Below are positions 18,940-41,339 of a stretch of 64,000 bases of DNA, piece by piece. The notes under the pieces are model-generated. The model did no database searches. It was not told where the DNA came from and saw nothing but the letters and a program-made list of their open reading frames with translations. The translations under genes and the position numbers were made by a program. Position 1 is the stretch's first letter. The number at the start of each line of letters is the position of its first letter. The stretch comes from Raineyella sp. LH-20 (lineage in GTDB: Bacteria > Actinomycetota > Actinomycetes > Propionibacteriales > Propionibacteriaceae), in the NCBI RefSeq assembly GCF_033110965.1, contig NZ_CP137003.1:620001-684000 (forward strand), in the 5' to 3' direction.

Positions 18940-19036
18940 GAGGCAACCCTCCTTCGTTCACTCGTCGTTGAGTCGGAGCGTCCGGACAGCGCCCTTGGCG
19001 CGCTCCAATGCATCCAAAGTAGCCCGGCATGATTCA

Positions 19037-19050
19037 TTTGTCCATACATT
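19037..19050. promoter_or_regulatory. Operator-like motif TTTGT-N4-ACATT upstream of the broken transporter
   Basis: TTTGT-CCAT-ACATT, 97 bases upstream of the transporter start. It is one member of the family of TTTGT-N4-ACAAA sites in this island (20181, 25395, 39356, 40193). Confidence 0.5.
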
Positions 19051-20168: not shown

Positions 20169-20180
20169 CCGCTCCTGTCA

Positions 20181-20194
20181 TTTGACTATACAAA
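20181..20194. promoter_or_regulatory. Operator-like motif TTTGA-N4-ACAAA in divergent LacI/isomerase region
   Basis: TTTGA-CTAT-ACAAA between the LacI gene and the operon at 20268. It overlaps the putative minus-strand -10 box TATAGT. One arm differs by a base from the consensus seen at 25395 and 39356. Confidence 0.5.
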
Positions 20195-21224: not shown

Positions 21225-21255
21225 CCCCGGGCGCGGACCGGAAGGACAACGAACA

Positions 21256-25298: not shown

Positions 25299-25394
25299 TT
25301 CGATGGGTACCTCCGTGGTTCGGTGCCGTGTCGGACCCACGCTCCACCGCGAGCCCGACATCAGCTTACCGACATTTACCCCGCCTGTGAAGAC

Positions 25395-25445: not shown

Positions 25446-26444
25446 TCACAGGGCGGCAGCGGCGTCGAGCACCGTACGGGCACTGCGCCGCAGGCCCTCC
25501 TCGCGGGAGAAGGCCCCGTCCTCATGCTCGATCGAGACGTTCATGGTGGGATCCACCTCGGCCACCGCGCGGAGGAAGTCGGTCCACCAGGCCGTGTCGT
25601 GGCCCTGACCGACCGCCACGAAGCGCCACGCCGGATCGGCCGGCCACTGCGAGCACCAGTGCGCCGAACCGGTGGGCGTACGCTGCGCCGGGTCCGCCGG
25701 CACCGTCCCGAAGCTCGCGTCCAGCACGCCGCGGGTCGCGACGCCCGGCTCGAGCCGGGTGTCCTTGGCGTGCACGTGAGCGATATGGCGACCGAGCAGC
25801 CGGATCGACGCGAGGATGTCCATCCCCTGCCACATCAGGTGCGAGGGGTCCATGTTGACGGCGATGTTGCTGCAGCCGGTGCGCTCGACGAACTCCAGGA
25901 AGCCCACCGGGGTGAAGACCAGGTTGTGCGGGTGCAGCTCCCAGGCCAGCGTGACGCCGGCATCGGCCGCACGGGCGTCCACCTCCTTCCAGAACGGGTC
26001 GGCGACGCTGCGCTGGTACTCCAGCACCTCGAGGTAGACGCCGTCCCACGGGTTGACGACCCAGGACGGGTAGCGGGCACCGGGATCGGAGCCCGGCACA
26101 CCGGACATGCAGACGATCTCCTTCACCCCGAGCAGCGGCGCCAGCTCGATCGCCCGACGCAGGTCGTACGCGTGTCGGGGACCCTGGTCGGGCAACGGGG
26201 ACAGCACGTTGCCGGAGGTGTTCAGGCCGGCCAGTCGCATCCCCCGTTCGGCGAACAGACCCAGGTAGTCGTCCCGGGCGGAGGCCGAGACGAGCAGGGT
26301 GTCGACCGGGCAGTGCGGGGACGGGATGAAGCCGCCGACGTTGACCTCGGCACCGGTCAGGCCGGCCCCTTTGATCACGTCGAGGGCGTCGGGTAGGGCA
26401 CGGTCCTGGAGGCAGGCGGTGTAGGCGGCGAGCTGGAGGGGCAT
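25446..26444 (-). CDS. Sugar phosphate isomerase/epimerase-like TIM-barrel protein
   Basis: 332 residues from ATG 26444. Metal-binding barrel residues are visible in LAWELHPHNLVF, NMDPSHLMWQGMD and HVHAKDTRLE, with a C-terminal VSIEHEDG glutamate. This four-ligand pattern fits the xylose-isomerase-like family, whose members act on keto-sugars or inososes. The start is 18 bases after the stop of the upstream Gfo/Idh gene, so the two form an operon. It is clearly different in sequence from the barrels at 20268, 28893 and 41340. Confidence 0.85.
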   Translation of the reverse strand: MPLQLAAYTACLQDRALPDALDVIKGAGLTGAEVNVGGFIPSPHCPVDTLLVSASARDDYLGLFAERGMRLAGLNTSGNVLSPLPDQGPRHAYDLRRAIELAPLLGVKEIVCMSGVPGSDPGARYPSWVVNPWDGVYLEVLEYQRSVADPFWKEVDARAADAGVTLAWELHPHNLVFTPVGFLEFVERTGCSNIAVNMDPSHLMWQGMDILASIRLLGRHIAHVHAKDTRLEPGVATRGVLDASFGTVPADPAQRTPTGSAHWCSQWPADPAWRFVAVGQGHDTAWWTDFLRAVAEVDPTMNVSIEHEDGAFSREEGLRRSARTVLDAAAAL

Positions 26445-26462
26445 GGTGGTCTCTTTCCTGGG

Positions 26463-27650
26463 TCAGAAGTCGATGGCGACAGTGCCGCCGCCGGCGGCGG
26501 CGGAACGGACGATGGCGTCCTGGATGCGGATCGCGCGGTAGCCGTGCGCGAACCCGGGGACGGGCGGCAGTCCCTCGTCGACGCCCGCGACCTGGTCGAG
26601 GAAGGCCCGGGCCTGGTAGACGAACTGGTCGATCTGGGTGACGCCGACGCCACCGAAGGCCATCGACGAGCCGTCCTTGAAGTAGGGGAAGTCCGGGCCG
26701 ACCAGCACCCGGCGGGGACCGCGCAGGCCGTCCCGCGGGGCGGTGTCGTCGAGCTGGATCTCGCCGGCCCGGTTCATGTCGAAGCGGACCGCGCCGGCGG
26801 TGCCGAGCACGTCGACGGCCAGGTTGTTCGGGCAGCCGAAGGCGACCCGGGAGACCGAGATCGAGCCGACGGCGCCACTGGCGAAGCGCAGGCTGAACAG
26901 GGCGAGGTCGTCGTTCTCCACCGGCTCGCTGGCCGCGGCGGAGGTGGTGGTCCCGCGGCCACCGGCGACGCCCTCGAGGGCCGGCGGGCGGTGCGTGATG
27001 ACGGTCGCCAGCTCGGCGCCGGAGACCGACACCAGAGGGCCGCAGAGGAACTCAGCCAGGTCGGTGATGTGCGAGCCGAGGTCACCCAGGGCACCGGAGC
27101 CCATCGGCCCCCGATAGCGCCAGGCGATCGGGACGGTGGGATCGGCGCCGTAGTCGCACCAGTAGGTGCCGTGGAACTGGGTGACGGTTCCGAGGTCGCC
27201 CGCCTCGACCATCCGGGCGATCTGGGCGAGGCCGGGCTGGCGGCGGTAGCCGAAGCCGATGCCGGTCACCACGGCGGCGTTCGCCTCGAGCTCCGCCATC
27301 GCCCGGGCGTCCGCCAGGGTGTCGGCGAGCGGCTTCTCACAGAGCACGTGTTTGCCGGCGGCGACCAGGGCCTCGGCGATCTCACGGTGCCACCGGTTGG
27401 CGACCACGATCGAGACGATGTCGACGTCGTCGGCCTCGACGATCCGGCGCCAGTCCGTCTCGGCCCGCTGGTAACCGTAGCTCCGCACGGCATCCTCGGC
27501 GAAGGGAGCGTACGCGTCGCAGACGGCGGCCAGCCGGACCGGCGGGACGACGCCGGGGGCGTAGATGGTGCCGGCCTGGCGCCAGGCGTTGGCGTGGGTG
27601 CGGCCGGCCATCCCCGCGCCGATGACGGCGACGGAGAGGGGAACAGACAT
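26463..27650 (-). CDS. Gfo/Idh/MocA oxidoreductase (glycoside/anhydrosugar-dehydrogenase-like branch)
   Basis: 395 residues from ATG 27650, with GGAGG upstream. Rossmann motif AVIGAGMAGRTHA, lysine motif CEKPLADT, and the segment WRYRGPMGSGALGDLGSHITDLAEFL. The GSGALGDLGSH signature and the length of about 395 are typical of the branch that includes levoglucosan 3-dehydrogenase and other 3-keto-glycoside-forming enzymes, rather than classic IolG (about 335). Substrate assignment is from remembered family features. First gene of a two-gene operon with its own promoter. Confidence 0.85.
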   Translation of the reverse strand: MSVPLSVAVIGAGMAGRTHANAWRQAGTIYAPGVVPPVRLAAVCDAYAPFAEDAVRSYGYQRAETDWRRIVEADDVDIVSIVVANRWHREIAEALVAAGKHVLCEKPLADTLADARAMAELEANAAVVTGIGFGYRRQPGLAQIARMVEAGDLGTVTQFHGTYWCDYGADPTVPIAWRYRGPMGSGALGDLGSHITDLAEFLCGPLVSVSGAELATVITHRPPALEGVAGGRGTTTSAAASEPVENDDLALFSLRFASGAVGSISVSRVAFGCPNNLAVDVLGTAGAVRFDMNRAGEIQLDDTAPRDGLRGPRRVLVGPDFPYFKDGSSMAFGGVGVTQIDQFVYQARAFLDQVAGVDEGLPPVPGFAHGYRAIRIQDAIVRSAAAGGGTVAIDF

Positions 27651-27708
27651 GGGTCCTCCAGGGTCTTCGTTGACGCTGCGCGCGGATCGACAGCTGTTGC
27701 CGCCCGTA

Positions 27709-27765
27709 TTGACGCGCGTTAATAGTGACGCCTCCACTATCAGCCAGAACGAAACAACCTGTCAA
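27709..27765 (-). promoter_or_regulatory. Promoter and operator candidates for the Gfo/isomerase operon
   Basis: On the minus strand TTGACA (27760-27765) and GATAGT (27736-27741) are 18 bases apart. The inverted repeat ATAGTG-N7-CACTAT (27722-27740) overlaps the -10 box, and a near-palindrome TTGACGCGCGTTAA with a central CGCG (27709-27722) adjoins it, the form usual for LacI-family operators. The LacI gene at 27888 is the obvious candidate regulator. Confidence 0.6.
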
Positions 27766-27813
27766 TACAGTGATTTGACCTGTCATTAAGGTCACACGTC
27801 GGGTGCCCACGCG

Positions 27814-27907
27814 GTGCGTACCGGCTACGCCGCGGTGCGTACGGGCTACGCCGAGGTGCGTACGGGCTACGCCGAGGTGCGTACGGGCTACGCCGAGGTG
27901 CGTACGG
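27814..27907. repeat. 21-bp tandem repeat, about 4.5 copies, overlapping the LacI stop codon
   Basis: Unit GTGCGTACGGGCTACGCCGAG at 27835, 27856 and 27877, preceded by a slightly diverged copy at 27814 and followed by a partial copy at 27898. The minus-strand LacI gene ends within the array (its stop is at 27888), so most copies lie in its 3' untranslated region. No unique spacers, so not CRISPR. Confidence 0.95.
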
Positions 27908-28874
27908 TCAGCCGCGGAGCGACGACCCGGTCCTCCCCGGGACGGGTCGGATCGGCCTGGCGGGCGACCAGCAGGTCGAGCGCCGCCCCGCCGAGCAGGG
28001 CGGGATCCTGGTCGACCGAGGTCAGGGAGAACTCGGTCCGACCGGCCAGATAGGTGTCGTCGAAGCCGGTGACGCCGACGTCGCGGCCGACCACCAGCCC
28101 GGCGGCGCGCAGGGCGGCCACGACGTCCAGCGCCATCAGGTCGTTGTGGGCGGTGATCGCCCAGGGCGCCGCGGGCCGCTCCGCGGCGAGCAGCCGGCGG
28201 ACGACCTCGCCGGCGTCGTCCTCCGCCTCCAGGCAGCGCGGGGCCAGTCCGCGCGCGGCCATCGCCCGCAGCTGTTCCCGGCGGCGGACCGAGACGGTGG
28301 GGTCGGCATCCCCGTGCCGCGGGGAGAGATGGACGATCCCGCGATAGCCGCGGCCGAGCAGATGGTCGACCAGCAGGTCCGCGGCGGCCGCCTCGTCGAC
28401 GTGGACGGCGTCGACCCGGGGCGACAGCGCCTCGCTGCCCACCGTCACGACCGGCACCTGGGCGGCGTACGCCTCGAGGGCGTCGGCCCGGGCGAAGGGT
28501 GAGACGAGCACGGCGCCGGCGGCCCGCAACTCCTGGAAGCGGCCGATCACGGCGCGCTCGCGGGCGTCGTCGTTCGAGGCGGTGGCGACCAGCGGGAGCA
28601 GCGCGTGCGCCCGAGCGGCGTCCTGGATCGCCTCGACGACGGCCTCGAAGAAGGGGTTGCGCAGGTTGGGCAGCAGCACGCCGACGATCGGTGAGCGGGC
28701 GGACGCCAACGTCGCGGCGCCGAGGTTGCGGGTGTAACCCAGTTCCTCGGCGGCCGCGACGATCCGCCGGCGGGTCTCCGGGGCCACCCGAGGGGACCCG
28801 GAGAGTGCCAGCGAGACCAGACCACGGGAGACTCCGGCCAGGCGCGCCACGTCGCTCTGGGTGGGGTCGTTCAC
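27888..28874 (-). CDS. LacI-family transcriptional regulator
   Basis: 328 residues from GTG 28874, with AGGAG 7 bases upstream. The DNA-binding helix (TQSDVARLAGVSRGLVSLALSGSPRV) and the hinge are typical. The effector domain follows (VGVLLPNLRNPFFEAVVEAIQ, GFDDTYLAGRTEFSLTSVDQ). It is embedded in the transcription unit 32751 to 27888 (dehydrogenase, transporter, isomerase, regulator). Palindromes in front of the next operon (27709-27740) are likely targets. Its C-terminal codons come from the first unit of a tandem repeat, which may have altered the original end of the protein. Confidence 0.9.
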   Translation of the reverse strand: MNDPTQSDVARLAGVSRGLVSLALSGSPRVAPETRRRIVAAAEELGYTRNLGAATLASARSPIVGVLLPNLRNPFFEAVVEAIQDAARAHALLPLVATASNDDARERAVIGRFQELRAAGAVLVSPFARADALEAYAAQVPVVTVGSEALSPRVDAVHVDEAAAADLLVDHLLGRGYRGIVHLSPRHGDADPTVSVRRREQLRAMAARGLAPRCLEAEDDAGEVVRRLLAAERPAAPWAITAHNDLMALDVVAALRAAGLVVGRDVGVTGFDDTYLAGRTEFSLTSVDQDPALLGGAALDLLVARQADPTRPGEDRVVAPRLTVRTSA

Positions 28875-28892
28875 CTCGGGTCTCCTGGGGTG

Positions 28893-29759
28893 TCAGGCGG
28901 GGAATTCCTCCCGCAGGCGGGCGAGCATCCGACGGTTGATGTCGTCGGCCCGCTCGTGCCAGCCGAAGACGCACACCGACAGTACGCCGTCGAAGCCGAT
29001 CTCCTTCAGCGTGGCGAACACCCGGTCGAAGGGGACCTCGCCCAGGCCCAGCTCGTTGTGCTGGTGGACCCTGGCGTCGACGCCCGGCGGGTTGATGATG
29101 TAGCGGTTGCCGTCGTTGGCGCGGTGGTTGAACGCGTCGGCGACGTGCACCTCCCGCAGCTTCGGTGCGCAGCTGCGGATCATCCGCTCGACGTCACCGG
29201 CCCCGTCGGACAGGTGGTAGGTGTGCGGGCAGCAGTACTCGTACCCGATCCAGTCCCGGTTGGCCCCGCGGACCACGCCGTACGCCTGGTCGTGCCGTTC
29301 CACGAAGTCGTACGGGTGGGCCTCCATGTTCAGCCGGATCCCGTAGCGCTCGAAGTCGGGCGTGAGCTCCTCGATCGAGCGGTACCACTGGTGCTCGCAC
29401 TCCCGCGGGGTGTTCGGGTTGCCGGAGAACTCCGAGGTGATCTCCCGGACGTCCAGCTGGTCGGCCAGTTCCAGCAGCCGCCGCCAGTTGCGCAGCTGGG
29501 CGGCGCGCTCCTGCTCGTCGACGCTGGACCAGTCGAAGACCGGATTGAGCGTACGGATCCGCACCCCCGTCTCCCGGGAGGCCCGGCGCAGGTCGGCGAC
29601 GAGCTCGTCGTCCGCCTTCGGGTGGCGGTGCCAGAAGTGGAACTCCTCGTTGGGGGACAGTTCCACCTGCTCGAAACCGAGCTCGGCCGCCTTGCGCAGG
29701 GTGTCCGCGGTGGACATCGTCCGGTAGTACATGTTCGGGTCGAGGGCGATGTCGACCAT
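28893..29759 (-). CDS. Sugar phosphate isomerase/epimerase-like TIM-barrel protein (IolH-like)
   Basis: 288 residues from ATG 29759. Barrel metal ligands are likely in LNMEAHPYDF, CCPHTYHLSDG, EVHVADAF and VHQHNELGLG. The start MVDIALDPNMYYRTMS resembles IolH and related sugar isomerases, as far as recall allows. It lies between the IolT-type transporter (36 bases upstream) and the LacI gene (18 bases downstream), clearly one operon. Confidence 0.85.
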   Translation of the reverse strand: MVDIALDPNMYYRTMSTADTLRKAAELGFEQVELSPNEEFHFWHRHPKADDELVADLRRASRETGVRIRTLNPVFDWSSVDEQERAAQLRNWRRLLELADQLDVREITSEFSGNPNTPRECEHQWYRSIEELTPDFERYGIRLNMEAHPYDFVERHDQAYGVVRGANRDWIGYEYCCPHTYHLSDGAGDVERMIRSCAPKLREVHVADAFNHRANDGNRYIINPPGVDARVHQHNELGLGEVPFDRVFATLKEIGFDGVLSVCVFGWHERADDINRRMLARLREEFPA

Positions 29760-29795
29760 GGGGGCCTCCTGGGAGTGGGGTTGCGGGATGGGTTG

Positions 29796-31493
29796 TCAGA
29801 CCTGGACCGGCACCGTGTCGCCGGGCCGGGTGTAGACCTCCTCGAGGTGCTCCTCGAGCTCCTCCAGCGAGCGCCCCGAGGTCTCGGGCATGACCCGCCA
29901 CAGGGCGATCGCCACGATGACGTTCACGACGCCGTAGAGGGTGTAGGTGAGGCCGCCGCCGAGGTTGCTCATCATCGCCGGGAAGGTGAAGGTGATGATC
30001 GCGTTGACCACCCACATGCAGAACACGGCGGCACCGTTGGCGATGCCACGGACCCGGGCGGGGAACATCTCGCCGAGCATCGTCCAGACGACCGGTCCGT
30101 TGGCGGACTGGACGACCAGCATGAAGAAGCCCATCGCGGCCAGCACCAGCATCGGGGCGAACAGCGGCGGCTTGGTGCCGGCGGCCATGTAGGGCTGGAT
30201 CAGCCCGGTGAACAGACCGGCGATGGCGAACATGCTGACGGCGACCAGGATGATGCAGGTGATCAGGATCTGGCGGCGGCGGAACCTGAAGACCAGCCAC
30301 AGGCCGAGCGCGGAGCCCAGCACGGACATCACGCCGTTGGCGACCTGCGCGGTGATCGCGGCCGAGGTGCCGAGACCGGCGTACTCCAGGACCTTCGGGG
30401 CGTAGTACATCACGGTGTTGACGCCGGTGGTCTGGTTGCAGACGGCCAGCAGGATGCCGACCAGGAACAGCCGCCGCATCCACGGGGTGTTCACGATGTC
30501 GCGGAAGGTGCCCTTGGGCAGCGCCGCCTCGCGGCGCTCCTTCTCCACCATCTCGTCGAGTTCGTCGACGATGTCGCCGTCACGCTGGTCACGGACCCGC
30601 TTCAGGGAGCCGATCGCCTCGTAGTAGCGGCGCTGGACCATGTACCAGCGGGAGGACTCCGGCATCACTCGCATGCCGAACCACAGGGCGATCGCGGGGA
30701 TGCTGCACAGCACCAGCATCAGCCGCCAGGCACTGCCGTTGCCGCCGGCGATGGTGAGGTGGTTGACGTACGACGCCCAGGTGGACGGGTCGAGCGGGCC
30801 GCCGAGTGCGGACTGCAGGCCGGCGACGTTGTCCCAGCTCTGCGTGCCGGGCTGCAGCAGGCCGCCCGGATCGGCGGTGATGGTCAGCGACGGGCCACCG
30901 TACGCCTGGTTGATCACCGCGTTGAAGGCGAACGCCAGCAGCTGCCCGGTGACGATCATCAGCTGGTCGATCGCGACGATGGTGCCGCGGATGCGTTTCG
31001 GGGCGGTCTCCGACAGGTAGACCGGCACGGTGGCGGACGCGCCGCCGACGGCGAAGCCGAGGATGAAGCGGAACGGGTACATCACCCAGAGGGTGGGCGC
31101 GAAGGCGGTGCCGAGCGCGCCGACCAGGAAGACCAGCGCGAGCATCAGGATGTTGTGCCGACGGCCGTAACGATCGGACAGTCGGCCGCCGAGCAGGGCG
31201 CCGACGGCGGCGCCGATCAGCAGCGTGCCGCCGATCAGGCCCTCCTCCAGGGCGCCGAGGTGCAGGCCGTGGGCGGCCGCCGGCATGTACATGTACGGCA
31301 GGGCGCCGGAGATGACGCCGGTGTCGTAGCCGAAGAGCAGCGAGCCGAGGGTGGCCACGCCGGCGATGGCGACGATCGAGCGGTGCTTGCCGGAGGCCGG
31401 CGTACGATCGGCCAGCTCGCGCAGTTCGTCGCGCGAGACGTCGAGGGTGATGGCCTCAGGGTGAGGCGCAGAGGATGAAGCGGAGGTGTGCAC
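29796..31493 (-). CDS. Sugar/inositol:proton symporter, MFS sugar-porter family (IolT-like)
   Basis: 565 residues from GTG 31493, with GGGAG 6 bases upstream; the longer open frame would run into the upstream gene. Twelve-helix sugar porter: GSLLFGYDTGVISGALPY in helix 1, GRLSDRYGRR between helices 2 and 3, PESSRWY before the central loop, NQTTGVNTVMYY in helix 7 and PETSGRSLEELE at the C-terminus. It has a longer extracytoplasmic loop (about residues 215-260) than most members. It closely resembles the frameshifted copy at 17321-18939 and is the only intact inositol-type transporter in the window. Confidence 0.92.
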   Translation of the reverse strand: MHTSASSSAPHPEAITLDVSRDELRELADRTPASGKHRSIVAIAGVATLGSLLFGYDTGVISGALPYMYMPAAAHGLHLGALEEGLIGGTLLIGAAVGALLGGRLSDRYGRRHNILMLALVFLVGALGTAFAPTLWVMYPFRFILGFAVGGASATVPVYLSETAPKRIRGTIVAIDQLMIVTGQLLAFAFNAVINQAYGGPSLTITADPGGLLQPGTQSWDNVAGLQSALGGPLDPSTWASYVNHLTIAGGNGSAWRLMLVLCSIPAIALWFGMRVMPESSRWYMVQRRYYEAIGSLKRVRDQRDGDIVDELDEMVEKERREAALPKGTFRDIVNTPWMRRLFLVGILLAVCNQTTGVNTVMYYAPKVLEYAGLGTSAAITAQVANGVMSVLGSALGLWLVFRFRRRQILITCIILVAVSMFAIAGLFTGLIQPYMAAGTKPPLFAPMLVLAAMGFFMLVVQSANGPVVWTMLGEMFPARVRGIANGAAVFCMWVVNAIITFTFPAMMSNLGGGLTYTLYGVVNVIVAIALWRVMPETSGRSLEELEEHLEEVYTRPGDTVPVQV

Positions 31494-31542
31494 GAGGGAC
31501 TCCCTTGTCGAATCGCCCGACCGAGCGGGCGGCGCACGGTGA

Positions 31543-32751
31543 TCAGATGTCGTAGGTGGTGGTGCCCGAGACGCGTGGCACGTCGTGCCACTGACCGTCC
31601 GCACCGGAGGCCACGGCGGCCTCGTCGACCTCGGCGGCGGCCCATCCGTCGGCGACCGACGGGGCGAGCTGCTCACCGGTGGCGTACGACCGCAGGAACT
31701 GGGCGGCCTCGATGGACTTCATGTCGTCGAAGCCCATGGACGTGCCGGCGCCCGGCTGGAAGCGGTGGAACTCCGGGAAGTCCGGGCCGGCCATCACCCG
31801 GGTGTAGCCCTGGAACTCCTGGTCACGGCCGAGGCAGACCTCGAGGTCGTTGAGGTGCTCAAAGTTCCAGCGCAGCGACCCCTCGGTGCCGTACACCTCG
31901 ATGATGTACTCGGCGCGCGGGCCGACGCTGACCCGGGAGGCCTCCAGGGTGCCGACGACACCGTTGTCGAGGCGGACCAGCAGGGCCACCCAGTCCTCGT
32001 TCTCGACCGGGCCCTTCTGGTCGGAGACCTCCCAGCCGGTGTGCCCGACGCCGACCTTCGTCGGGATGGGCCGCTCGGGGATGAAGGTCTGCGAGACGGC
32101 CGAGACCGAGGCGATCCGTCCGACCAGGTACTGCACCAGGTCGGCGCCGTGGCTCATCAGGTCACCGATGACGCCGGAGCCGCCACGGCCCCGTTCGTAG
32201 CGCCAGGTCAGCGGGCCTTCCGGGGAGGAGGCGTAGTCGGCGATCAGCCAGGCCCGGACGTTGGTGATCCGGCCGAGGCGACCGGCCCGGATCAGCCGGC
32301 GGGCCTGCTCGATCGCCGGGGTGTGCCGGTAGTTGAAGCCGACAGAGGTGACCAGCCCGGCCTGTTGCGCGGCCAGCGCGATCTCCCGCGACTCGGCGGC
32401 GGAGACGCCCATCGGCTTCTCGATCCAGAACGGCTTGCCGGCCTCCACGGCCGCGAGCGCCATCTCCCGGTGCAGGAAGTTCGGCGCGCAGATCGACACC
32501 ACGTCGACCTCGGGGTCGGCCAGCACCTCGCGGTAGTCCGGCGTCGCGCGCTGGAAGCCCAGCGAGCCGACGGCGGCCAGCCGGGTCTCGGCCACGGTGT
32601 CGCACGCGGACACCAGCCGCGGGCGAACGCCCAGATCGGGGAAGTACTCGGCGACGCCCCGGTAGGCGCGGGCGTGTACGCGGCCCATCCAACCGAGGCT
32701 GATCACCCCCACGCCGACCCGTGGGTTACTACTGGCGTCTACGTCCGACAC
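31543..32751 (-). CDS. Gfo/Idh/MocA oxidoreductase (levoglucosan-dehydrogenase-like branch)
   Basis: 402 residues from GTG 32751, with AAGGAGG 7 bases upstream. N-terminal GVISLGWMGRVHARAY nucleotide-binding motif (unusual Ser-Leu for Gly-Ala), lysine motif IEKPMGVS, then LTWRYERGRGGSGVIGDLMSHGADLVQYL. Length and the W-R-rich GSG motif match the glycoside/anhydrosugar 3-dehydrogenase group as I remember it, not classical inositol 2-dehydrogenase. First gene of the operon leading into IolT, the TIM-barrel protein and LacI. Confidence 0.85.
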   Translation of the reverse strand: MSDVDASSNPRVGVGVISLGWMGRVHARAYRGVAEYFPDLGVRPRLVSACDTVAETRLAAVGSLGFQRATPDYREVLADPEVDVVSICAPNFLHREMALAAVEAGKPFWIEKPMGVSAAESREIALAAQQAGLVTSVGFNYRHTPAIEQARRLIRAGRLGRITNVRAWLIADYASSPEGPLTWRYERGRGGSGVIGDLMSHGADLVQYLVGRIASVSAVSQTFIPERPIPTKVGVGHTGWEVSDQKGPVENEDWVALLVRLDNGVVGTLEASRVSVGPRAEYIIEVYGTEGSLRWNFEHLNDLEVCLGRDQEFQGYTRVMAGPDFPEFHRFQPGAGTSMGFDDMKSIEAAQFLRSYATGEQLAPSVADGWAAAEVDEAAVASGADGQWHDVPRVSGTTTYDI

Positions 32752-32820
32752 GTCGCGCCCTCCTTGGCTGCCAGGGCCACACCGCTGTGGCCTCGTTGCT
32801 TCAGAATGCCATATGTTAGG

Positions 32821-32850
32821 TCAAATGAAAAGTCTTCTTAGGACATTTGA
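32821..32850. promoter_or_regulatory. Inverted repeat upstream of the dehydrogenase-transporter operon
   Basis: TCAAATG (32821-32827) and CATTTGA (32844-32850) are separated by 16 bases, 70 bases upstream of GTG 32751. Each arm is preceded or followed by TTAGG. A possible operator in an AT-richer patch; no convincing promoter hexamers were assigned. Confidence 0.4.
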
Positions 32851-32936: not shown

Positions 32937-32978
32937 CACAGGGGGCCTGATTTGTCCTAGCAAATCAGGCCCCCTGTG
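32937..32978 (-). terminator. Very strong terminator of the iolC-to-iolA operon
   Basis: CACAGGGGGCCTGATTTG pairs perfectly over 18 bases with CAAATCAGGCCCCCTGTG around the 6-base loop TCCTAG, 38 bases beyond the iolA stop. It is a simple stem without a U tract. It would also insulate the next operon. Confidence 0.88.
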
Positions 32979-33016: not shown

Positions 33017-34510
<1,494 letters not shown>

Positions 34511-34599
34511 GGGGTTACTACTCCTTGTGCGTGTGCTGCGTGGGAAGTGGTGGATGGGATGGTCCGGGAGCGGTCGGGCCGGGGCCCGGCCGGCCGGGA

Positions 34600-36501
34600 T
34601 CAGTTCAGGTAGTGGCGCTGCGGCTGCTTCGCGGCGACGTACTCCTCGTACGCGCGCTGGGTGGACTCCAGCCGCGACACCTGGGAGACGGCGACGTCCC
34701 ACCAGGAGGAGGCCGGCGGGTTGGGCCCGTAGAGGTCGGTCTCGATGTGGATCATCACCGCCCGATCGCCGGCGGCCGCCTCGCGGTAGGCCGCCCGGAA
34801 CTCGTCGATGGTGTGCACCCGGAGCACCCTGATGCCCCACGACTCGGCGTTCGCGGCGATGTCGACCGGCAGCGGGGCGCCGTCCTCGGTGTGCGGGCGG
34901 CCGCCGCCGGCACGGTAGCGGGTGCCGAACCGCTGCGAGCCACGCGACTCCGACAGGGCACCGATCGAAGCGAAGCCGTGGTTCTGGAGCAGCACGAAGA
35001 TGACCTTCAGGCCCTCCTGGACGATGGTCGCCAGCTCCATCGGCAGCATCTGGTAGGTGCCGTCGCCGACGATGGCGACCACCTCGGCGTCGGGCAGCGC
35101 CAGCTTGACGCCCATCGCCGCCGGGATCTCGTAGCCCATGCAGGAGAAGGCGTACTCGACGTGGTACTGCACCGGGGTGCGGGCCTGCCACAGCGCCTGG
35201 AGGTCACCGGGCATCGAGCCGGCGGCGTTGATCACCACGTCCTCGTCGCCCATCAGCTCGTTGAGCGCGCCGAAGACCTCGGTCTGCGCCGGCAGCGGCC
35301 CGTGGCCGAGGTGGTAGCACCGCTGCGTCGCGGCGGCCCAGGCCTCCTTCTCGGCGGCGATCTCGGTGGCGTACGCCGCGTCCACCCGGTGCCCGTCGAG
35401 GGCGGCGGTCAGTGCGACCAGGGCCTCCCGGGCGTCGGCCACCACCATCTCGCCGGAGTTCTTAGCGGCGTCGAAGGCCGCCACGTTGACGTTGACGAAC
35501 CGTACGTCGGGGTCCTTGAACTGGGTGTGCGAGGCGGTGGTGAAGTCGGAGTAGCGGGTGCCGATGCCGATCACCAGGTCGGCCTTGTCGGCCAGGTGGT
35601 TGCCGGAGTCACCACCGGTCGATCCGACACCGCCCACGGCGCACGGATGGTCGAAGTTGATCGCGCCCTTGCCGGCCTGGGTGTCGGCGACCGGGATGCC
35701 GGTGGCGGTGGCGAAGGCCCGCAGCTGCTCGGCGGCCTCGGAGTAGATCACCCCGCCGCCGGCGATCACCAGCGGACGCCGGGCGGCCCGGATCAGCGCG
35801 ACCGCACGCTCCAGCGCGGCCGGCTCGGGCACCGGGCGGCGGACGTGCCAGACCCGCCGGTCGAACAGGCCGGCCGGGAAGTCGTACGCCTCGGCCTGGA
35901 CGTCCTGCGGCAGGGCGATCACGCAGGCGCCGGTGTCGGCCGGGTCGGTGAGCACCCGCATCGCGTTGAGCAGCGACGGGATGAGCTGCTCGGGACGGTT
36001 GATCCGGTCGAAGAAGCGTGACACCGGCCGGAAGCAGTCGTTGACCGAGATGTCCAGCGAGGTCGGGTCCTCGAGCTGCTGGAGCACCGGGTCGGGGAAG
36101 CGGGTGGCGAACTGGTCGGAGGGGAACAGCAGCACCGGCAGCCGGTTGGTGGTCGCCAGCGCGGCGCCGGTGACCATGTTGAGGGAGCCGGGGCCGATCG
36201 AGGCGGTGCACATCATCGCCCGCAGCCGGTTGGTCGCCTTGGCGTACGCCGCCGCCGCGTGCACCATGCCCTGCTCGTTGCGCGGCATGTAGTACGGCAT
36301 CGCGCCACCGTCCGGCGCGGGGTCGAGCTCGTTCTGCAGCAGCGCCTGGCCGATGCCGGCCACGTTGCCGTGGCCGAAGATGCCGAGCGCTCCGGTGACG
36401 AACCGCTCCTCGACCCCGTCCCGCTCGACGTACTGGTTGACCAGGAAGCGGATGATGGCCTGTCCGACGGTGAGTCGTACGGTCGGGTTGACGGTGTCCA
36501 T
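34600..36501 (-). CDS. iolD: 3D-(3,5/4)-trihydroxycyclohexane-1,2-dione acylhydrolase, ThDP-dependent
   Basis: 633 residues from ATG 36501, the usual length. It opens the ring of the diketo-inositol to 5-deoxy-glucuronate. ThDP-enzyme domains are in order: an N-terminal pyrimidine-binding domain with the activating Glu in RNEQGMVHAA, a central domain, and a C-terminal pyrophosphate domain with GDGTYQMLPMELAT and the cofactor-binding Asn in VLLQNHGFASIG. The SRGSQRFGTRYR segment is typical of IolD. The start lies 2 bases after the iolB stop, with AGGAG 5 bases upstream inside iolB. Confidence 0.96.
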   Translation of the reverse strand: MDTVNPTVRLTVGQAIIRFLVNQYVERDGVEERFVTGALGIFGHGNVAGIGQALLQNELDPAPDGGAMPYYMPRNEQGMVHAAAAYAKATNRLRAMMCTASIGPGSLNMVTGAALATTNRLPVLLFPSDQFATRFPDPVLQQLEDPTSLDISVNDCFRPVSRFFDRINRPEQLIPSLLNAMRVLTDPADTGACVIALPQDVQAEAYDFPAGLFDRRVWHVRRPVPEPAALERAVALIRAARRPLVIAGGGVIYSEAAEQLRAFATATGIPVADTQAGKGAINFDHPCAVGGVGSTGGDSGNHLADKADLVIGIGTRYSDFTTASHTQFKDPDVRFVNVNVAAFDAAKNSGEMVVADAREALVALTAALDGHRVDAAYATEIAAEKEAWAAATQRCYHLGHGPLPAQTEVFGALNELMGDEDVVINAAGSMPGDLQALWQARTPVQYHVEYAFSCMGYEIPAAMGVKLALPDAEVVAIVGDGTYQMLPMELATIVQEGLKVIFVLLQNHGFASIGALSESRGSQRFGTRYRAGGGRPHTEDGAPLPVDIAANAESWGIRVLRVHTIDEFRAAYREAAAGDRAVMIHIETDLYGPNPPASSWWDVAVSQVSRLESTQRAYEEYVAAKQPQRHYLN

Positions 36502-36503
36502 GG

Positions 36504-37397
36504 TCACTCCTGCGGGGTCAGTGGGGTCATCGGCAGACGAGGGTCGACCTCGCCGGTCTGCCATTCCTGGCGCAGCCAGGTGTAGTGCGGGTCGTCGGTC
36601 ATCAGCCAGGTCGAGTCCTCGGCCGGGCCGGCCATCACGTTGAGGTAGTAGAGGTCGTAGCCGGGGGCGGCGACCGAGGGGCCGTGGTAGCCGTACGGCA
36701 TGATCACGATGTCGCGGCTGTGCACCTCGGCACAGACGTCGATCGGCTTGCCGGGCGAGGGGTAGATCCGCTGCAGGGCCATCCCGGTGGTGCCGTTCGC
36801 GGCCGGGCGGACCTCGTAGTAGTAGATCTCCTCCAGGATCCGCTCCACCTCGGTGTGCTCGTCGTGCTTGTGCGGCGGGTAGGAGGACCAGTTGCCGCCC
36901 GGGGTGAGCACCTCGCAGGCGAGCAGGTGGGAGGTCGGCACGGCGTTGCCGAGGGCGTAGTTGTTGACCTGGCGGGAGCAGTCGCCGGTGCCGCGCAGCT
37001 GGCTGACCACCTCACCGACCGCGCAGTAGCGCACCGGCAGGTCGGCGGTGGCCTTCGCCGCCGGCAGGGCGTACCGGCCGCCCGCCGCGCTGGACACCAC
37101 GAAGGTGGTGTGCCGCGGGACGTAGAGGTAGTCGGTGACCGCGGTCCACACCTCCCGGCGACCGGCGAGGTCGTACGACTCCCCCGCCACCTCGACCCGG
37201 CAGCCACCGGCCAGCGGCAGCACCAGCAGCTCGGCGTCACCGCTGGACACCTCCTGGCGGCCGCCCGCGGGCAGCGCGAGGACCCGCAGCGAGCACCAGT
37301 CCCAGCCGGCCCGCTCCACGGTGAGGTCGGTCTCGAACGCCTCGTGGGCGGTCTCCCCGGCCCGGATGACGTAACGGTCGTTGTCGTTCACAGCCAT
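36504..37397 (-). CDS. iolB: 5-Deoxy-glucuronate isomerase
   Basis: 297 residues from ATG 37397. The ribosome-binding site is weak here: AAAGG touches the ATG, so GTG 37391 (7 bases after AAAGG) is a real alternative. IolB converts 5-deoxy-glucuronate to 2-deoxy-5-keto-gluconate. The bicupin metal site is in SSYPPHKHDEHTEVERILEEIYYYEV, with a later HGPSVAAPGYDLYYLNVMAG, both hallmarks of IolB. Part of the five-gene iol operon. Confidence 0.95.
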   Translation of the reverse strand: MAVNDNDRYVIRAGETAHEAFETDLTVERAGWDWCSLRVLALPAGGRQEVSSGDAELLVLPLAGGCRVEVAGESYDLAGRREVWTAVTDYLYVPRHTTFVVSSAAGGRYALPAAKATADLPVRYCAVGEVVSQLRGTGDCSRQVNNYALGNAVPTSHLLACEVLTPGGNWSSYPPHKHDEHTEVERILEEIYYYEVRPAANGTTGMALQRIYPSPGKPIDVCAEVHSRDIVIMPYGYHGPSVAAPGYDLYYLNVMAGPAEDSTWLMTDDPHYTWLRQEWQTGEVDPRLPMTPLTPQE

Positions 37398-37431
37398 GCC
37401 TTTCACAGGAGTGTTGTCACAGTCGCGTCGT

Positions 37432-38298
37432 TCACAGCACGGCCACGGCCCGGTCGACCGCGCCGGCGACGTCCCCGTCGGGCGGGAAGAGCAGCGAGCG
37501 GCCGATCACCAGACCGCGGACGTTGGGCAGGGACAGTGCCGTGGCCCAGCCCGAGAGGGCGGCCTCCGGGTCGTCCGGCACCTCGCCGCCGAGGATCAGG
37601 CAGGGCAGCGTGGTCGCCTCCATCACCCGCTCCATCTCGTCGACGCAGGGCAGCTTCAGCCAGGTGTAGGCCGACGTACGCCCCAGGGCCGAGGAGATCG
37701 CCATCGACCGGATCACCGCGTCGGGGCTCAGATCGTTGACGGCGCGCCCGTCACGACGGCTGCTGACGAACGGCTCGACCATCGCGGTGAGGCCCCGGTC
37801 GGCCAGCTCGTCGACGGCGTGCGCCGACGAGGTCAGCGTCGAGGCGGTGCCGGCGTCGTCGTACGCGAGGCGGAGCAGCATCTTCCCGCCGTCGAGCCCG
37901 GCGTCGGCGATGCCGCGGGCGTCGTAGCAGTTGAAGCGGTCGTCCATCTCGAACGAGGCGCCCTGCAGGCCGACCCGGTTCATCGTGCCCCAGACCAACT
38001 TGGCGTCGAGGGCGCCGAGCAGAGCCAGATCCTCGATGATGTCGGCCGAGCCGAGGAAGCCGTTGACGCCGGGGCGGCCGAGCGCCTCGAGGCAGCGGGC
38101 CAACACCTCCTCGCGGGAGGCCATCGCCATCGGGTCGGACCCGGCTCCCAGGGCGCCGCGGGCCGGGTGGTCGCAGGCGATGATCATCAGCTTCGCGTCG
38201 CCGGCCGGCAGCGTGCCGCGGGGCCGGTCGGCCAGCGCACGGCGGACCGCCTGCGGGTCGTGGAAGCGGATCTCGGTGAGCTTCTCGATCAGTGTCAT
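37432..38298 (-). CDS. Cgl0159-type (beta/alpha)8 aldolase, probable 2-deoxy-5-keto-gluconate-6-phosphate aldolase
   Basis: 288 residues. ATG 38298 overlaps the iolC stop by one base (TGATG). It resembles the class I aldolase-like family represented by corynebacterial Cgl0159, found in actinobacterial iol operons: IIACDHPARGAL near the N-terminus, MLLRLAYDDAG, AYTWLKLP with a probable Schiff-base lysine, and LILGGEVPDD. No IolJ homologue is present in the window. By position between IolC and IolB it should cleave the IolC product to malonate semialdehyde and dihydroxyacetone phosphate. This step is inferred. Confidence 0.85.
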   Translation of the reverse strand: MTLIEKLTEIRFHDPQAVRRALADRPRGTLPAGDAKLMIIACDHPARGALGAGSDPMAMASREEVLARCLEALGRPGVNGFLGSADIIEDLALLGALDAKLVWGTMNRVGLQGASFEMDDRFNCYDARGIADAGLDGGKMLLRLAYDDAGTASTLTSSAHAVDELADRGLTAMVEPFVSSRRDGRAVNDLSPDAVIRSMAISSALGRTSAYTWLKLPCVDEMERVMEATTLPCLILGGEVPDDPEAALSGWATALSLPNVRGLVIGRSLLFPPDGDVAGAVDRAVAVL

Positions 38299-39284
38299 CA
38301 CAGGGCCTCGGTCCTCGGTGCGGAGGCAGGATTGGCGGCCATCAGGTCGAGGACCTCCTGCTCGGTGGCCATCGCCGTGGAGCACTCCAGCCGGGAGGCG
38401 ACGATGGCGCCGGCGGTGGAGGCGAAGGAGACGGCCTTGGCGAGGTCCCAGCCCTCCAGCAGGGCGTGGCAGAGAGCGCCGCCGAAGGAGTCGCCGGCAC
38501 CCAGACCGTTGCAGACCTGCACCGGCGTGACCGGGACGACGACCCGCTCGTCGCGGGTCTTGGCGAGGGTGCCGAGCGGCCCCTGCTTGACGACGGCGAT
38601 CTCCACGCCGCGCTCCAGCAGCGCGTCGGCCGCCCGCTCGGGCTCGGTCTCGCCGACCGCGATCCGGCACTCCTCCTTGTTGCCCACCACGATGTCGACC
38701 CGGTCGAGCACCCGGCCGACCTCGGTGTGGGCGACCTGCTCGTTCTCCCAGAACATCGGCCGGTAGTCGAGGTCCAGGACGGTGAGCGGCGTACGGCCCC
38801 GCAGGTCCAACGCGCGGTGGTGCGCGCTGCGGGTCGGCTCGACCGACAGCCCGGTGACCGACAGCCAGAAGATCTTCGCGCCCCGGACGGCGTCCTCGGG
38901 GATGTCCGCGGGGCGGATCTGCAGGTCGGGCGCCGAGGGCTGCCGGTAGAAGTACAGCGGGAAGTCGTCCGGCGGGAAGATCTCGCAGAACGTCACCGGG
39001 GTGAGGAAGTCGTGATTGGTGATCACGTAGCGGGGATCCACCCCGAGCCGCGCCACCTCCTGGCGGACGAAGCGACCGAACGGATCGTCGCCGACCTCGG
39101 TGATCACCGCGGAGGAGTGCCCCATCCGGGCGGCGGCGACCGCGACGTTGGTCGGCGACCCGCCGACGAACTTCCCGAACGACGTCACCTCCTCCAGCCC
39201 GACACCGATCTGCAACGGGTAGATGTCCACACCACTACGGCCGATGGTGAGGACGTCAGGGACGGATGACGTTGACGGGTCCAC
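38298..39284 (-). CDS. iolC: 5-Dehydro-2-deoxygluconokinase (PfkB family)
   Basis: 328 residues from GTG 39284 with GGAGAGG 9 bases upstream; an upstream frame extension lacks kinase similarity and would cover the operator. PfkB motifs: GRSGVDIYPLQ at the start, GKFVGGSPTNVAVAAARMG, and the C-terminal NGLGAGDSFGGAL with the catalytic Asp. It phosphorylates 2-deoxy-5-keto-gluconate. First gene of the five-gene iol operon; the TTTGT-N4-ACAAA site at 39356 lies 72 bases upstream. Confidence 0.95.
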   Translation of the reverse strand: MDPSTSSVPDVLTIGRSGVDIYPLQIGVGLEEVTSFGKFVGGSPTNVAVAAARMGHSSAVITEVGDDPFGRFVRQEVARLGVDPRYVITNHDFLTPVTFCEIFPPDDFPLYFYRQPSAPDLQIRPADIPEDAVRGAKIFWLSVTGLSVEPTRSAHHRALDLRGRTPLTVLDLDYRPMFWENEQVAHTEVGRVLDRVDIVVGNKEECRIAVGETEPERAADALLERGVEIAVVKQGPLGTLAKTRDERVVVPVTPVQVCNGLGAGDSFGGALCHALLEGWDLAKAVSFASTAGAIVASRLECSTAMATEQEVLDLMAANPASAPRTEAL

Positions 39285-39355
39285 TGCTGCCTGCCTCTCC
39301 TTTGGGACTGAGCCTCGAGGAACAGTCTGCCTGACGACACGGACAAGGTCAACAC

Positions 39356-39369
39356 TTTGTCTGCACAAA
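39356..39369. promoter_or_regulatory. Perfect operator-like site TTTGT-CTGC-ACAAA between iolC and the GntR gene
   Basis: Perfect arms in the 158-base divergent region. On the minus strand it lies just upstream of TTGACC (39347-39352), a possible iolC -35 box. Position and symmetry fit control of both divergent genes by the GntR protein, as for corynebacterial IolR, whose remembered consensus KGWCHTRACA overlaps this motif. Confidence 0.65.
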
Positions 39370-39442
39370 TACCCATGCTTGTCACAGTTGGCTAGAGTGA
39401 GGGCTAGCAATACTGGGCAACGCTGTAGGGACAAGGACGACC

Positions 39443-40186
39443 ATGAGCGAGTACTACGAGCCGGCCATCGTCATCGACCGGGACTCCGACGAGCCGCTGT
39501 ACAAGCAGATCGCCGAGCCCATCGAGCAGGCGATCCTCTCCGGCGAGCTCGCCTCGGGGGCCCGGATCGAGGACGAGATCTCGATGGCCCAGCGCCTCGA
39601 CGTCTCCCGGCCGACCGCCCGCCGGGCACTGCAGGAGCTGGTGAACCGCGGCTTGCTGACCCGCCGGCGCGGCGTCGGCACGACGGTCACCCCACCACAG
39701 GTGCACCGGCCGATCGAGCTCACCTCGCTCTACGACGACCTGACCCGCGAGGGCTTCACGCCGAGCACCAAGGTGCTGTCGTACGACGTCCACGAGGCCG
39801 ACGAGGAGGAATCCGACCGCCTGGCGGTCGCCCCCGGCACCGGCGTGGTCCGGATCGCCCGACTCCGTTCAGCGGACAACCGCCCACTCGCCGTGCTGAC
39901 CAACCTGATCCCGATCGACCTGGCCCCGTCCTGGACCGACCTCAACGAGCACGGTCTCTACCGGTGCTTCAACGACCACGGCATCCATATCGCCACCGCC
40001 AAGCAGGTGATCGGCGCCCGGGCCGCCACCGCCGAGGAGGCGGAGCTGCTGACCGAGCCGGTCGGCGCCCCACTGCTCACCATGAGCCGCACCGCGTACG
40101 ACGCCACCGGCCGGGTGGTGGAGTACGGCAACCACATCTACCGCCCGTCGTTGTACTCCTTCGACCTGACCCTTGTCGCCCACTGA
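39443..40186 (+). CDS. iolR: GntR-family regulator of inositol genes (IolR-like, HutC/UTRA subfamily)
   Basis: 247 residues. The GntR winged helix (LYKQIAEPIEQAILSGELASGARIEDEISMAQRLDVSRPTARRALQELVNRG) is followed by a UTRA effector domain starting near RPIELTSLYDDLTREG. It is divergent from the iolC operon and convergent with nothing, being followed by iolG and iolE. The TTTGT-N4-ACAAA sites on both sides of the gene (39356 and 40193) are likely its targets. Naming as IolR rests on context and on the corynebacterial precedent. Confidence 0.85.
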   Translation: MSEYYEPAIVIDRDSDEPLYKQIAEPIEQAILSGELASGARIEDEISMAQRLDVSRPTARRALQELVNRGLLTRRRGVGTTVTPPQVHRPIELTSLYDDLTREGFTPSTKVLSYDVHEADEEESDRLAVAPGTGVVRIARLRSADNRPLAVLTNLIPIDLAPSWTDLNEHGLYRCFNDHGIHIATAKQVIGARAATAEEAELLTEPVGAPLLTMSRTAYDATGRVVEYGNHIYRPSLYSFDLTLVAH

Positions 40187-40192
40187 AACGTG

Positions 40193-40238
40193 TTTGTTCT
40201 GACATTTTGTTGACTTTGGCTGGACGTTCCGCTTGAAT
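40193..40238 (+). promoter_or_regulatory. iolG promoter with operator-like site
   Basis: TTTGT-TCTG-ACATT (40193-40206) ends 3 bases before TTGACT (40210-40215). A 17-base spacer leads to TTGAAT (40233-40238). A protein on this site would contact or block the -35 box. Seven of the ten arm plus spacer bases in TTTGTTCTGACA are shared exactly with the site at 25395. Confidence 0.65.
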
Positions 40239-40297
40239 CGAGTCATGGCTTCACGAGGCCGGCAGCGAGGCCGGTCCGCCGGTGACGAGGAACAGGC

Positions 40298-41293
40298 ATG
40301 ACTCAACTGCGTTTCGCACTGATCGGGGCAGGACGTATCGGTCAGGTGCACGCCCGGACCATCGCGGCCCATCCCGCGGCGACCCTCTCCCTGGTCTGTG
40401 ACCCGGTGGTCGCCGCCGCGGAGTCGGTGGCTGCGACGTACGGCGCCCGCACCTGCACGGACGCCGCGGAGGTGTTCGCGGCCGACGACGTCGACGCGGT
40501 GGTGATCGGCTCCCCCACCCCGCTGCACGTGCAGCACATCCTCGCCGCGGTGAAGGCCGGCAAGCCCGCCCTGTGCGAGAAGCCGGTGGCGATGCAACTG
40601 GCCGACGCCGAGCAACTGCAGCACCGGCTCGCCGAGCTGCCCGACGTCCCGGTGATGCTCGGCTTCAACCGGCGGTTCGACCCGTCCTTCGCCCGGGCGC
40701 ACGCCCTGGTCGGCGACGGCGCGATCGGCGCGCTGGAGCAGCTGACCATCATCTCCCGCGACCCGGCGGCCCCGCCGAAGGCCTACCTCGCCCAGTCCGG
40801 CGGCATCTTCAAGGACATGACGATCCACGACTTCGACACCGCCCGGTTCTTCCTGGGCGACGTCGCCGAGGTCACCGCGACCGGACAGCACCTCGACCCG
40901 GAGCTCGCCGACAGCGGCGACTTCGACGGTGCCGTCATCGTGCTGCGCTCCGCGAGCGGGGCGGCCGCCACCATCATCAACTCCCGACACTGTGCCACCG
41001 GCTACGACCAGCGGCTCGAGGCGTTCGGCCCCGAGGGCGCGATCCTCGCCGAGAACCAGCGCCCGACCACCCTCAAGGTGTCCACCCGGGAGGCCTCGGA
41101 CGCGCAGGCGCCCTACCTCGACTTCTTCCTCGAGCGCTACGCCGACGCCTACCGCGCCGAGCTGACCGCCTTCATCGAGGCCCTCACCCAGGGCACCCCG
41201 GTCTCCCCCACCGTCGCCGACGGTGTCGAGGCGCTGCGCATCGCCGAGGCGGCCGGCACGTCCGCCCGGACCGGCGCCACCGTACGACTCTGA
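40298..41293 (+). CDS. iolG: Inositol 2-dehydrogenase (Gfo/Idh/MocA)
   Basis: 331 residues from ATG 40298. NAD-binding GAGRIGQVHA, catalytic lysine in CEKPVAMQL, then GFNRRFDPSF and GGIFKDMTIHDFDTARFF, the classical inositol dehydrogenase signature with the active-site Asp and His. It oxidises myo-inositol to scyllo-inosose. It is followed 46 bases later by iolE, forming a two-gene operon under the promoter and operator at 40193. Of the four Gfo/Idh proteins in the window this is the best fit to the canonical IolG. Confidence 0.93.
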   Translation: MTQLRFALIGAGRIGQVHARTIAAHPAATLSLVCDPVVAAAESVAATYGARTCTDAAEVFAADDVDAVVIGSPTPLHVQHILAAVKAGKPALCEKPVAMQLADAEQLQHRLAELPDVPVMLGFNRRFDPSFARAHALVGDGAIGALEQLTIISRDPAAPPKAYLAQSGGIFKDMTIHDFDTARFFLGDVAEVTATGQHLDPELADSGDFDGAVIVLRSASGAAATIINSRHCATGYDQRLEAFGPEGAILAENQRPTTLKVSTREASDAQAPYLDFFLERYADAYRAELTAFIEALTQGTPVSPTVADGVEALRIAEAAGTSARTGATVRL

Positions 41294-41339
41294 CCCTCCA
41301 CACCCCTCACACGCAGAACGACTGCAAAGGAGCAGACCT

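Follow-up and report, generated by a model that had tools for sequence, protein, structure and literature searches.

A six-gene dehydrogenase and TIM-barrel block beside the inositol genes of Raineyella sp. LH-20 is probably an accessory, cyclitol-specific branch of the inositol regulon

The block analysed here lies at positions 25446-32751 of a 64,000-nucleotide stretch of Raineyella sp. LH-20 (the window; positions 620,001 to 684,000 of contig NZ_CP137003.1) and encodes two dehydrogenases of the Gfo/Idh family, two TIM-barrel proteins, a transporter of the major facilitator superfamily (MFS) and a LacI-family regulator. The six genes, all on the minus strand, were intact. They were arranged in two tandem units, GFO402-MFS-TIM288-LacI (unit 1) and GFO395-TIM332 (unit 2), and had the sizes and coordinates given in an earlier note on this DNA:

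31543..32751, minus strand: GFO402, 402 amino acids, long-form Gfo/Idh protein in a clade of its own; predicted cyclitol dehydrogenase
29796..31493, minus strand: MFS, sugar-porter MFS protein, IolT-type from family and context; start codon read
28893..29759, minus strand: TIM288, IolH-type barrel, from a 43% homologue, tree and residues
27888..28874, minus strand: LacI, LacI-family regulator, from Pfam and NCBIfam
26463..27650, minus strand: GFO395, 395 amino acids, long-form Gfo/Idh protein with residue spacing as reported for OxiB
25446..26444, minus strand: TIM332, barrel related to LgdB2, LgdB3 and AtHYD; predicted metal-dependent lyase or hydratase

Intergenic gaps measured 49, 36 and 18 bases in unit 1 and 18 bases in unit 2, with 237 bases between the units. 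The GFO402 gene starts with GTG, 7 bases after AAGGAGG, and the GFO395 gene with ATG, 4 bases after GGAGG. The six genes were alike in their guanine-plus-cytosine content at third codon positions (0.92-0.96). Pfam and NCBIfam assigned Gfo/Idh, AP_endonuc_2 barrel, LacI and sugar-porter MFS families to the block proteins, and the transporter exceeded the cut-off of TIGR00879 (314 versus 237.8 bits). The 3' end of LacI carries a 21-base tandem repeat (27813-27921; 4.5 copies, 97%), in which every unit duplicates the last codons and stop of this gene.

For both dehydrogenases, the top family was levoglucosan dehydrogenase (NF052479), with 306 bits for GFO402 and 276 bits for GFO395 against a cut-off of 650; when the whole genome was searched, none of the seven matches to this family was over the cut-off. 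Scores for the IolG-type family TIGR04380 were 106 and 97 bits, respectively, versus a cut-off of 355. The comparison with LgdA and IolG sets suggested in the earlier note was run as a maximum-likelihood tree of 52 rows, including 16 GFO402, 8 GFO395, 9 LgdA, 7 LgdC and 5 IolG-type rows (the labels LgdB1, LgdB2, LgdB3 and LgdC in our trees are our own, based on protein size and location within lgdA loci rather than on accessions). Each of these sets was split off by a well-supported branch, with clade support of 100/99 for LgdA and 100/100 for both GFO402 and GFO395. Because of this separation, GFO402 and GFO395 are, on sequence grounds, neither LgdA, LgdC nor IolG; the view that neither is IolG-like thus held, both proteins being below the family cut-off and outside the IolG-type clade. 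Judged in the same way, they belong to a long Gfo/Idh subfamily which holds levoglucosan and scyllo-inositol dehydrogenases. Among the 30 lgdA loci retained for comparison out of 33 found (L058-L087; L088-L090 were excluded, with 22-35% identity, and L087 was without an open-frame match), LgdA proteins shared 32-39% identity with GFO402 and 33-38% with GFO395, and LgdC-type proteins scored lower.

Both dehydrogenases retain the catalytic residues Lys, Asp and His, and both carry the signature W-R...GSG..GD..-H, which had been taken as a mark of 3-keto-glycoside enzymes; since the scyllo-inositol/L-glucose dehydrogenase of Paracoccus laeviglucosivorans (Pl-scyllo-inositol dehydrogenase; 5YA8) bears it too, with small changes, the signature marks the subfamily and not that chemistry. 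Phe17, Tyr163 and Glu165 are substrate-binding positions of the Paracoccus enzyme (PMC5969746). At the aligned positions, LgdA and LgdC (four rows each) had Phe, Tyr and Gln; GFO402 (nine rows) had Trp, Leu/Phe and Ala/Gly/Ser; and GFO395 (eight rows) had Met, Tyr and Cys/Ala/Thr. The Tyr-x-Gln pocket of LgdA and LgdC is replaced by Leu-x-Ala in GFO402 and by Tyr-x-Cys in GFO395. The block dehydrogenases resemble the Paracoccus enzyme in belonging to the long subfamily, in the Lys/Asp/His residues and in a loop Arg, but its substrate residues Glu165 and His318 are kept in neither (PMC5969746).

A second comparison concerned OxiB, described as a myo-inositol dehydrogenase with weak scyllo activity, for which Tyr138, Tyr166, Asp193, His197 and Asn278 are named for docked inositols (PMC9603128). 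Tyr135, Tyr163, Asp190, His194 and Asn275 of GFO395 have the same spacing at a constant offset of 3, the comparison being made with these five published residue numbers, not with the sequence. The interval from the second Tyr to Asp is one residue longer in LgdA and in Pl-scyllo-inositol dehydrogenase than in GFO395. We regard this spacing as a lead to the probable function of GFO395, not as proof. The iol clusters of Corynebacterium glutamicum that include OxiB, OxiD and OxiE (PMC9603128) are similar to the present one in being actinobacterial and in having several paralogous dehydrogenases, but differ in that GFO402 has no assigned counterpart there.

TIM332 matched LgdB2 at 33-35% over about 325 amino acids. 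In the barrel tree it formed a clade of its own (10 rows, 100/99), which a 97/93 node joined to an eight-row group (85/84) made up of four further barrels and the LgdB2 proteins encoded in four Bacillaceae lgd loci; one of the further barrels (L123, 6519-7469) belongs to an inositol cluster on a Tsukamurella plasmid, and LgdB3 joined this node next (99/96). When a profile of the TIM332 family was compared with known structures, 2ZDS (1.7e-81; LgdB3 rows are part of the profile) and the hydratase 8RO4 (1.1e-28) were matched far ahead of IolI (7.6e-8) and IolE (4.1e-7). Similarly, Foldseek matched the TIM332 model (mean predicted local distance difference test score of 92) to 2ZDS (1.2e-18) and 8RO4 (1.5e-18), with the third match at 2.9e-12. 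The latter structure is the Agrobacterium 2-hydroxy-3-keto-glucal hydratase AtHYD, which shares active-site motifs with TIM332 but only about 20% identity, and whose operon, as we understand PMC10628242, begins with a flavin dehydrogenase and cleaves glucosides.

The motifs Glu-x-His, Asp-Pro-Ser-His, Lys-Asp and Glu-x-Glu-Asp were common to TIM332, LgdB2, LgdB3 and AtHYD, apart from Thr or Ala replacing Pro in a few relatives and Cys ending Glu-x-Glu-Asp in AtHYD; L127, a relative outside the TIM332 clade, has Phe instead of the first His. In the glycoside beta-eliminase AtOGE, the catalytic His is two residues past the strand-5 metal ligand (PMC10628242). The single IolI row compared had no His two residues past that Glu, and the rows of IolE, TIM321 (a second IolE-like barrel of the window) and LgdB1, which formed a group of their own (100/97), had His-x-His instead. 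Based on these LgdB2/LgdB3/AtHYD motifs and the structure matches, unlike those of IolI and IolE, the most likely role of TIM332 is as a lyase or hydratase acting next to a ketone. LgdB2 itself has been reported for both hydration and elimination (PMC7676230 and PMC10066097).

Several observations were made alongside these. LgdB1 (3-keto-levoglucosan eliminase; L058, L066, L068, L079 and L080) grouped with the inosose dehydratase IolE, with which it shares His-x-His. A different cluster, seen in two genomes (L119 and L120), contained long Gfo/Idh genes together with two barrels, one TIM332/LgdB2-like and the other IolE/LgdB1-like; in the 12-14 kb retrieved, it showed no matches to iolA-D. A zinc alcohol dehydrogenase gene (24162-25361) adjoins TIM332 in the window; its top family was NDMA-dependent alcohol dehydrogenase, it scored under the cut-off of every family listed, and a weak motif-like site lies at its start.

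The earlier note had placed the second barrel with the lgd enzymes as well. TIM288 as LgdB1 was ruled out, however, as TIM288 and six relatives formed one clade (100/99) beside IolI, and LgdB1 grouped with IolE and TIM321. A 43% homologue of TIM288 was found in a Peribacillus plasmid operon with the order iolA (methylmalonate-semialdehyde dehydrogenase), iolB, iolC, iolD, iolE, MFS, Gfo/Idh, TIM288-like gene, iolI and fba. The homologue thus lies between the Gfo/Idh gene and iolI, which we take to be the iolH position of the Bacillus operon, and by gene position TIM288 is IolH. It is similar to the IolH of Bacillus-type iol operons in identity and gene place, but differs in sharing a separate unit with the GFO402 and transporter genes. 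The usual metal ligands, Asp of strand 6 and Glu of strand 8, were absent in all seven IolH-type barrels compared; because of this loss, IolH-type chemistry may differ from that of other barrels of the fold.

An iol set sits directly upstream of GFO402. Only iolD and iolG in this set exceeded a family cut-off, the remaining gene names having been read from the sequences; iolE, for example, scored 155 bits versus a cut-off of 290 (141 bits for TIM321 in the same family). On the other side of the block, a region at 19110-22263 holds a second LacI gene (LacI2), TIM321 and a dehydrogenase, GFO335, whose top family was myo/D-chiro-inositol dehydrogenase (352 bits versus a cut-off of 540). GFO335 has GFMRRFD and FGY, compared with GF(M/N)RR(Y/F)D and YGY in the myo/D-chiro group (PMC9603128). 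A second sugar-porter gene (MFS2, 17321-18939) was split across two frames, as a broken gene or through a sequence error. The sites of an operator-like motif, together with the iol set, were as follows:

33017..42200: adjacent iol set; iolA, iolD, iolB, iolJ-like and iolC on the minus strand, GntR, iolG and iolE on the plus strand
32812..32826, minus strand: operator-like motif ATTTGACCTAACATA, 61 bases upstream of GFO402
27773..27787, plus strand: operator-like motif ATTTGACCTGTCATT, 123 bases upstream of GFO395
20180..20194, plus strand: same motif, in the promoter region from which LacI2 and TIM321-GFO335 diverge
19036..19050, plus strand: same motif, 97 bases upstream of the second sugar-porter gene
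39356..39370, minus strand: same motif with one mismatch, between iolC (estimated start) and the GntR regulator

The motif, ATTTGWCYWDWCAWW, was recognised by eye in four promoters, namely those of the second transporter, TIM321, GFO395 and GFO402. Its four exact sites in the 3.63-Mb genome were those upstream of MFS2, LacI2/TIM321, GFO395 and GFO402. With at most one mismatch, 10 genomic sites were found, eight of which were within the window, versus one for the reversed pattern; none of 100 dinucleotide shuffles of the window gave a match to ATTTGWCYWDWCAWW. In 32 stretches from relatives (two of them overlapping), 13 matches (12 distinct) were found versus 1 control match. Among them were sites preceding GntR/iolC (L048, L050 and L055), a site in L047 immediately upstream of a GFO402 match, and one in L113 in the promoter of a LacI|GFO395-TIM332 unit located away from the iol genes. 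The block therefore shares a putative operator with the iol genes, and its promoters most likely place it in the inositol regulon. The pattern KGWCHTRACA, which we take to be the IolR motif of C. glutamicum, matched the window once versus 1.03 expected, which is uninformative alone; the match was the GFO402 site. A guessed longer motif was rejected, with two matches versus 1.86 expected, i.e. at chance level. A perfect 18-base inverted repeat (32937-32978), terminator-like, lies between iolA and GFO402; a one-mismatch motif at 32950 spans the loop of this hairpin and was counted as upstream of a gene start.

We searched for relatives of the block proteins in 296 genomes of the class, our own genome included, 123 of which had iolD. 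GFO402 was counted in the 36 best-scoring genomes (E up to 2.7e-85; a looser limit gave 103 genomes and took in other subfamilies), and 35 of these had iolD, within 10 kb in 20 genomes and within 20 kb in 24. TIM288 was present in 17 genomes, all with iolD; GFO395 in 8, all with iolD, which was within 8 kb in 5; and TIM332 in 12, 11 of them with iolD. TIM332 adjoined GFO395 in seven of the eight GFO395 genomes, the exception being G138, and in G222 the pair was present with GFO395 in broken frames. TIM288 was found in 9 of the 12 TIM332 genomes (hypergeometric P of 1.2e-10, ancestry being ignored), and the three genomes without it (G082, G127 and G203) had the most distant TIM332 relatives (43, 38 and 35%, respectively). 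The link between the pair and TIM288 is not only physical, since they were on separate contigs in G002 and G266. GFO395-TIM332 is thus a rare conserved pair which co-occurs with IolH. On the Tsukamurella plasmid, LacI, GFO395, TIM332 and GFO402 were consecutive, in one cluster with iolG. This inositol cluster also contained a gene of the phytanoyl-CoA-dioxygenase family and a short-chain dehydrogenase/reductase gene (L123, 1049-3024), perhaps another way to treat O-methyl inositols. The family of G134, searched in the hope of finding Corynebacterium, gave nothing in 22 genomes.

Overall, the computation covered gene content, clades, conserved catalytic residues, a shared promoter motif and co-occurrence. 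Because of the shared motif, and because the best relatives of the block occur almost only in genomes with iolD, the block is not the self-contained pathway described earlier; it is probably an accessory branch within the inositol regulon, specific to cyclitols. What we infer beyond this concerns the substrate, cofactor, direction, individual step of TIM332 and induction. MFS would import an inositol-type substrate. GFO402 and GFO395, predicted to depend on nicotinamide adenine dinucleotide, would form keto-inositols by oxidising isomers of inositol or compounds closely derived from them. TIM332, predicted to be metal-dependent, would remove or add a group next to the ketone at a site of the keto-glucal hydratase type, and its product would enter via IolE/IolD. 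IolH (TIM288) would be part of the same branch, and LacI, together with the neighbouring IolR-like GntR, would give local control. Cyclitol oxidation followed by elimination or hydration is likely for GFO395-TIM332, and induction of the block is predicted to take place within the inositol regulon.

Several points weigh against this regulon-branch reading. The nearest solved structure by sequence was levoglucosan dehydrogenase for both dehydrogenases, with scyllo-inositol/L-glucose dehydrogenase third, and levoglucosan dehydrogenase was also the nearest fold for the GFO395 model, ahead of scyllo-inositol dehydrogenase. The enzymes that TIM332 most resembles act on derivatives of 3-keto-glucose and not on inososes. 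The OxiB-type Asn was found in five of eight rows of the GFO395 clade (Asp or Ser otherwise), and LgdA has an aligned Asn too, so the second Tyr-Asp interval is all that separates GFO395 and OxiB from LgdA. As for the motif, ATTTGWCYWDWCAWW was built from its own four sites, and independent support comes from relatives and one-mismatch sites (four further sites in the window versus two elsewhere in the 3.63 Mb); six of the eight window sites precede a gene start, and those at 23780 and 23870 are outside clear promoters. In 12 of the 36 GFO402 genomes, iolD was either missing, on a different contig or over 20 kb away from GFO402; GFO395-TIM332 and iolD were on different contigs in three of eight genomes; and G082 had TIM332 without iolD. 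The small co-occurrence P values disregard shared ancestry.

Two alternatives are finer versions of the regulon-branch reading, and their likelihoods overlap with its own. In one of them, GFO395-TIM332 would be an inositol dehydrogenase and an inosose isomerase used for D-chiro-inositol, like OxiB and a Cg0212-like protein of C. glutamicum. In a 2023 report, Cg0212 reportedly isomerises 2-keto-myo-inositol to 1-keto-D-chiro-inositol and its gene reportedly adjoins oxiB; a literature search for Cg0212 gave nothing usable. The residue spacing of GFO395 fits this proposal, but its Asn is not fixed in the GFO395 clade, TIM332 has the Glu-x-His whose His is missing from the IolI row, which lies with the IolH clade, and OxiB is described as inactive on D-chiro-inositol (PMC9603128). 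We consider the isomerase possible but doubtful. In the other, which we find unlikely, the pair would cleave a substituted cyclitol, i.e. an inositol glycoside or an O-methyl inositol such as pinitol: GFO395 would form a ketone two carbons from the substituted carbon, TIM332 would eliminate the sugar or methanol, and the keto-cyclitol would pass to the iol route. This agrees with the 97/93 node that joins TIM332 and LgdB2, with their Glu-x-His site, unlike that of the IolI row, with the hydration and elimination reported for LgdB2, with the adjoining alcohol dehydrogenase gene and with the stand-alone occurrence of the cassette, accompanied by a LacI of its own, in two genomes with iolD on another contig. 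It is countered by the lack of an LgdB1- or LgdC-type enzyme in the block, neither dehydrogenase grouping with LgdC, by the OxiB-like spacing, which points to free inositols, and by the alcohol dehydrogenase scoring under all cut-offs. Literature searches gave nothing usable on pinitol use and, on glycosyl-inositol breakdown via a 3-keto route, only seemingly unrelated papers. Equally tentative, and improbable as it stands, is the idea that GFO395-TIM332 would be a redox-elimination module for cyclitols, stripping methyl or sugar groups from O-methyl inositols or inositol glycosides without a hydrolase or oxygenase, with IolH as a required partner.

The remaining alternative, in which the block would be a pathway for levoglucosan (lgd) or another 3-keto-sugar without any tie to inositol, is very improbable. 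The composition, thought earlier to be undescribed, is already known for levoglucosan: the lgd system has two Gfo/Idh proteins of 43-44 kDa, barrels of 30 and 36 kDa, LacI and a transporter (PMC7676230), and MFS and LacI clusters are reported among lgdA neighbours (PMC10066097). The LgdA-LgdB1-LgdB2-LgdC systems of Bacillus smithii and Paenarthrobacter resemble the block in two Gfo/Idh proteins of about 400 amino acids, LacI, and barrels of about 275-290 and 325-330 amino acids. The lgd logic proposed in the earlier note therefore stands as far as the LgdA-type subfamily, the nearest structure, and the relationship of TIM332 to LgdB2, with its active-site residues, are concerned. It fails on LgdA/LgdC identity, as the block dehydrogenases are in other clades and have other pockets. 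Furthermore, the shorter barrel is IolH-like and no LgdB1-type barrel lies inside the block (the LgdB1 kin TIM321 and IolE are outside), the genome has no LgdA above the cut-off, and the block is embedded in an inositol cluster with its regulon context. Tried against the 30 loci of the LgdA search, the levoglucosan pathway was rejected.

Inositol clusters often hold several dehydrogenases and barrels without a known substrate, among them, to our knowledge, IolH. The association of IolH with a rare conserved dehydrogenase/LgdB2-like pair and one operator-like motif marks out a defined gene set for testing. The unusual part of the block is TIM332, a type of barrel so far known from levoglucosan and plant glycoside breakdown and here paired with GFO395, which hints at a possible entry route for unusual inositols into inositol degradation. 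This would link two hitherto separate fields: the folds of 3-keto-sugar eliminases are also those of inosose dehydratases, and LgdB1 and IolE group together in the tree. If the pair is a redox-elimination module, inositol catabolism would gain the oxidise-then-eliminate logic by which levoglucosan and C-/O-glycosides are broken down; and if TIM332 acts on substituted cyclitols, this would explain how soil bacteria could use the O-methyl inositols and inositol glycosides of plants.

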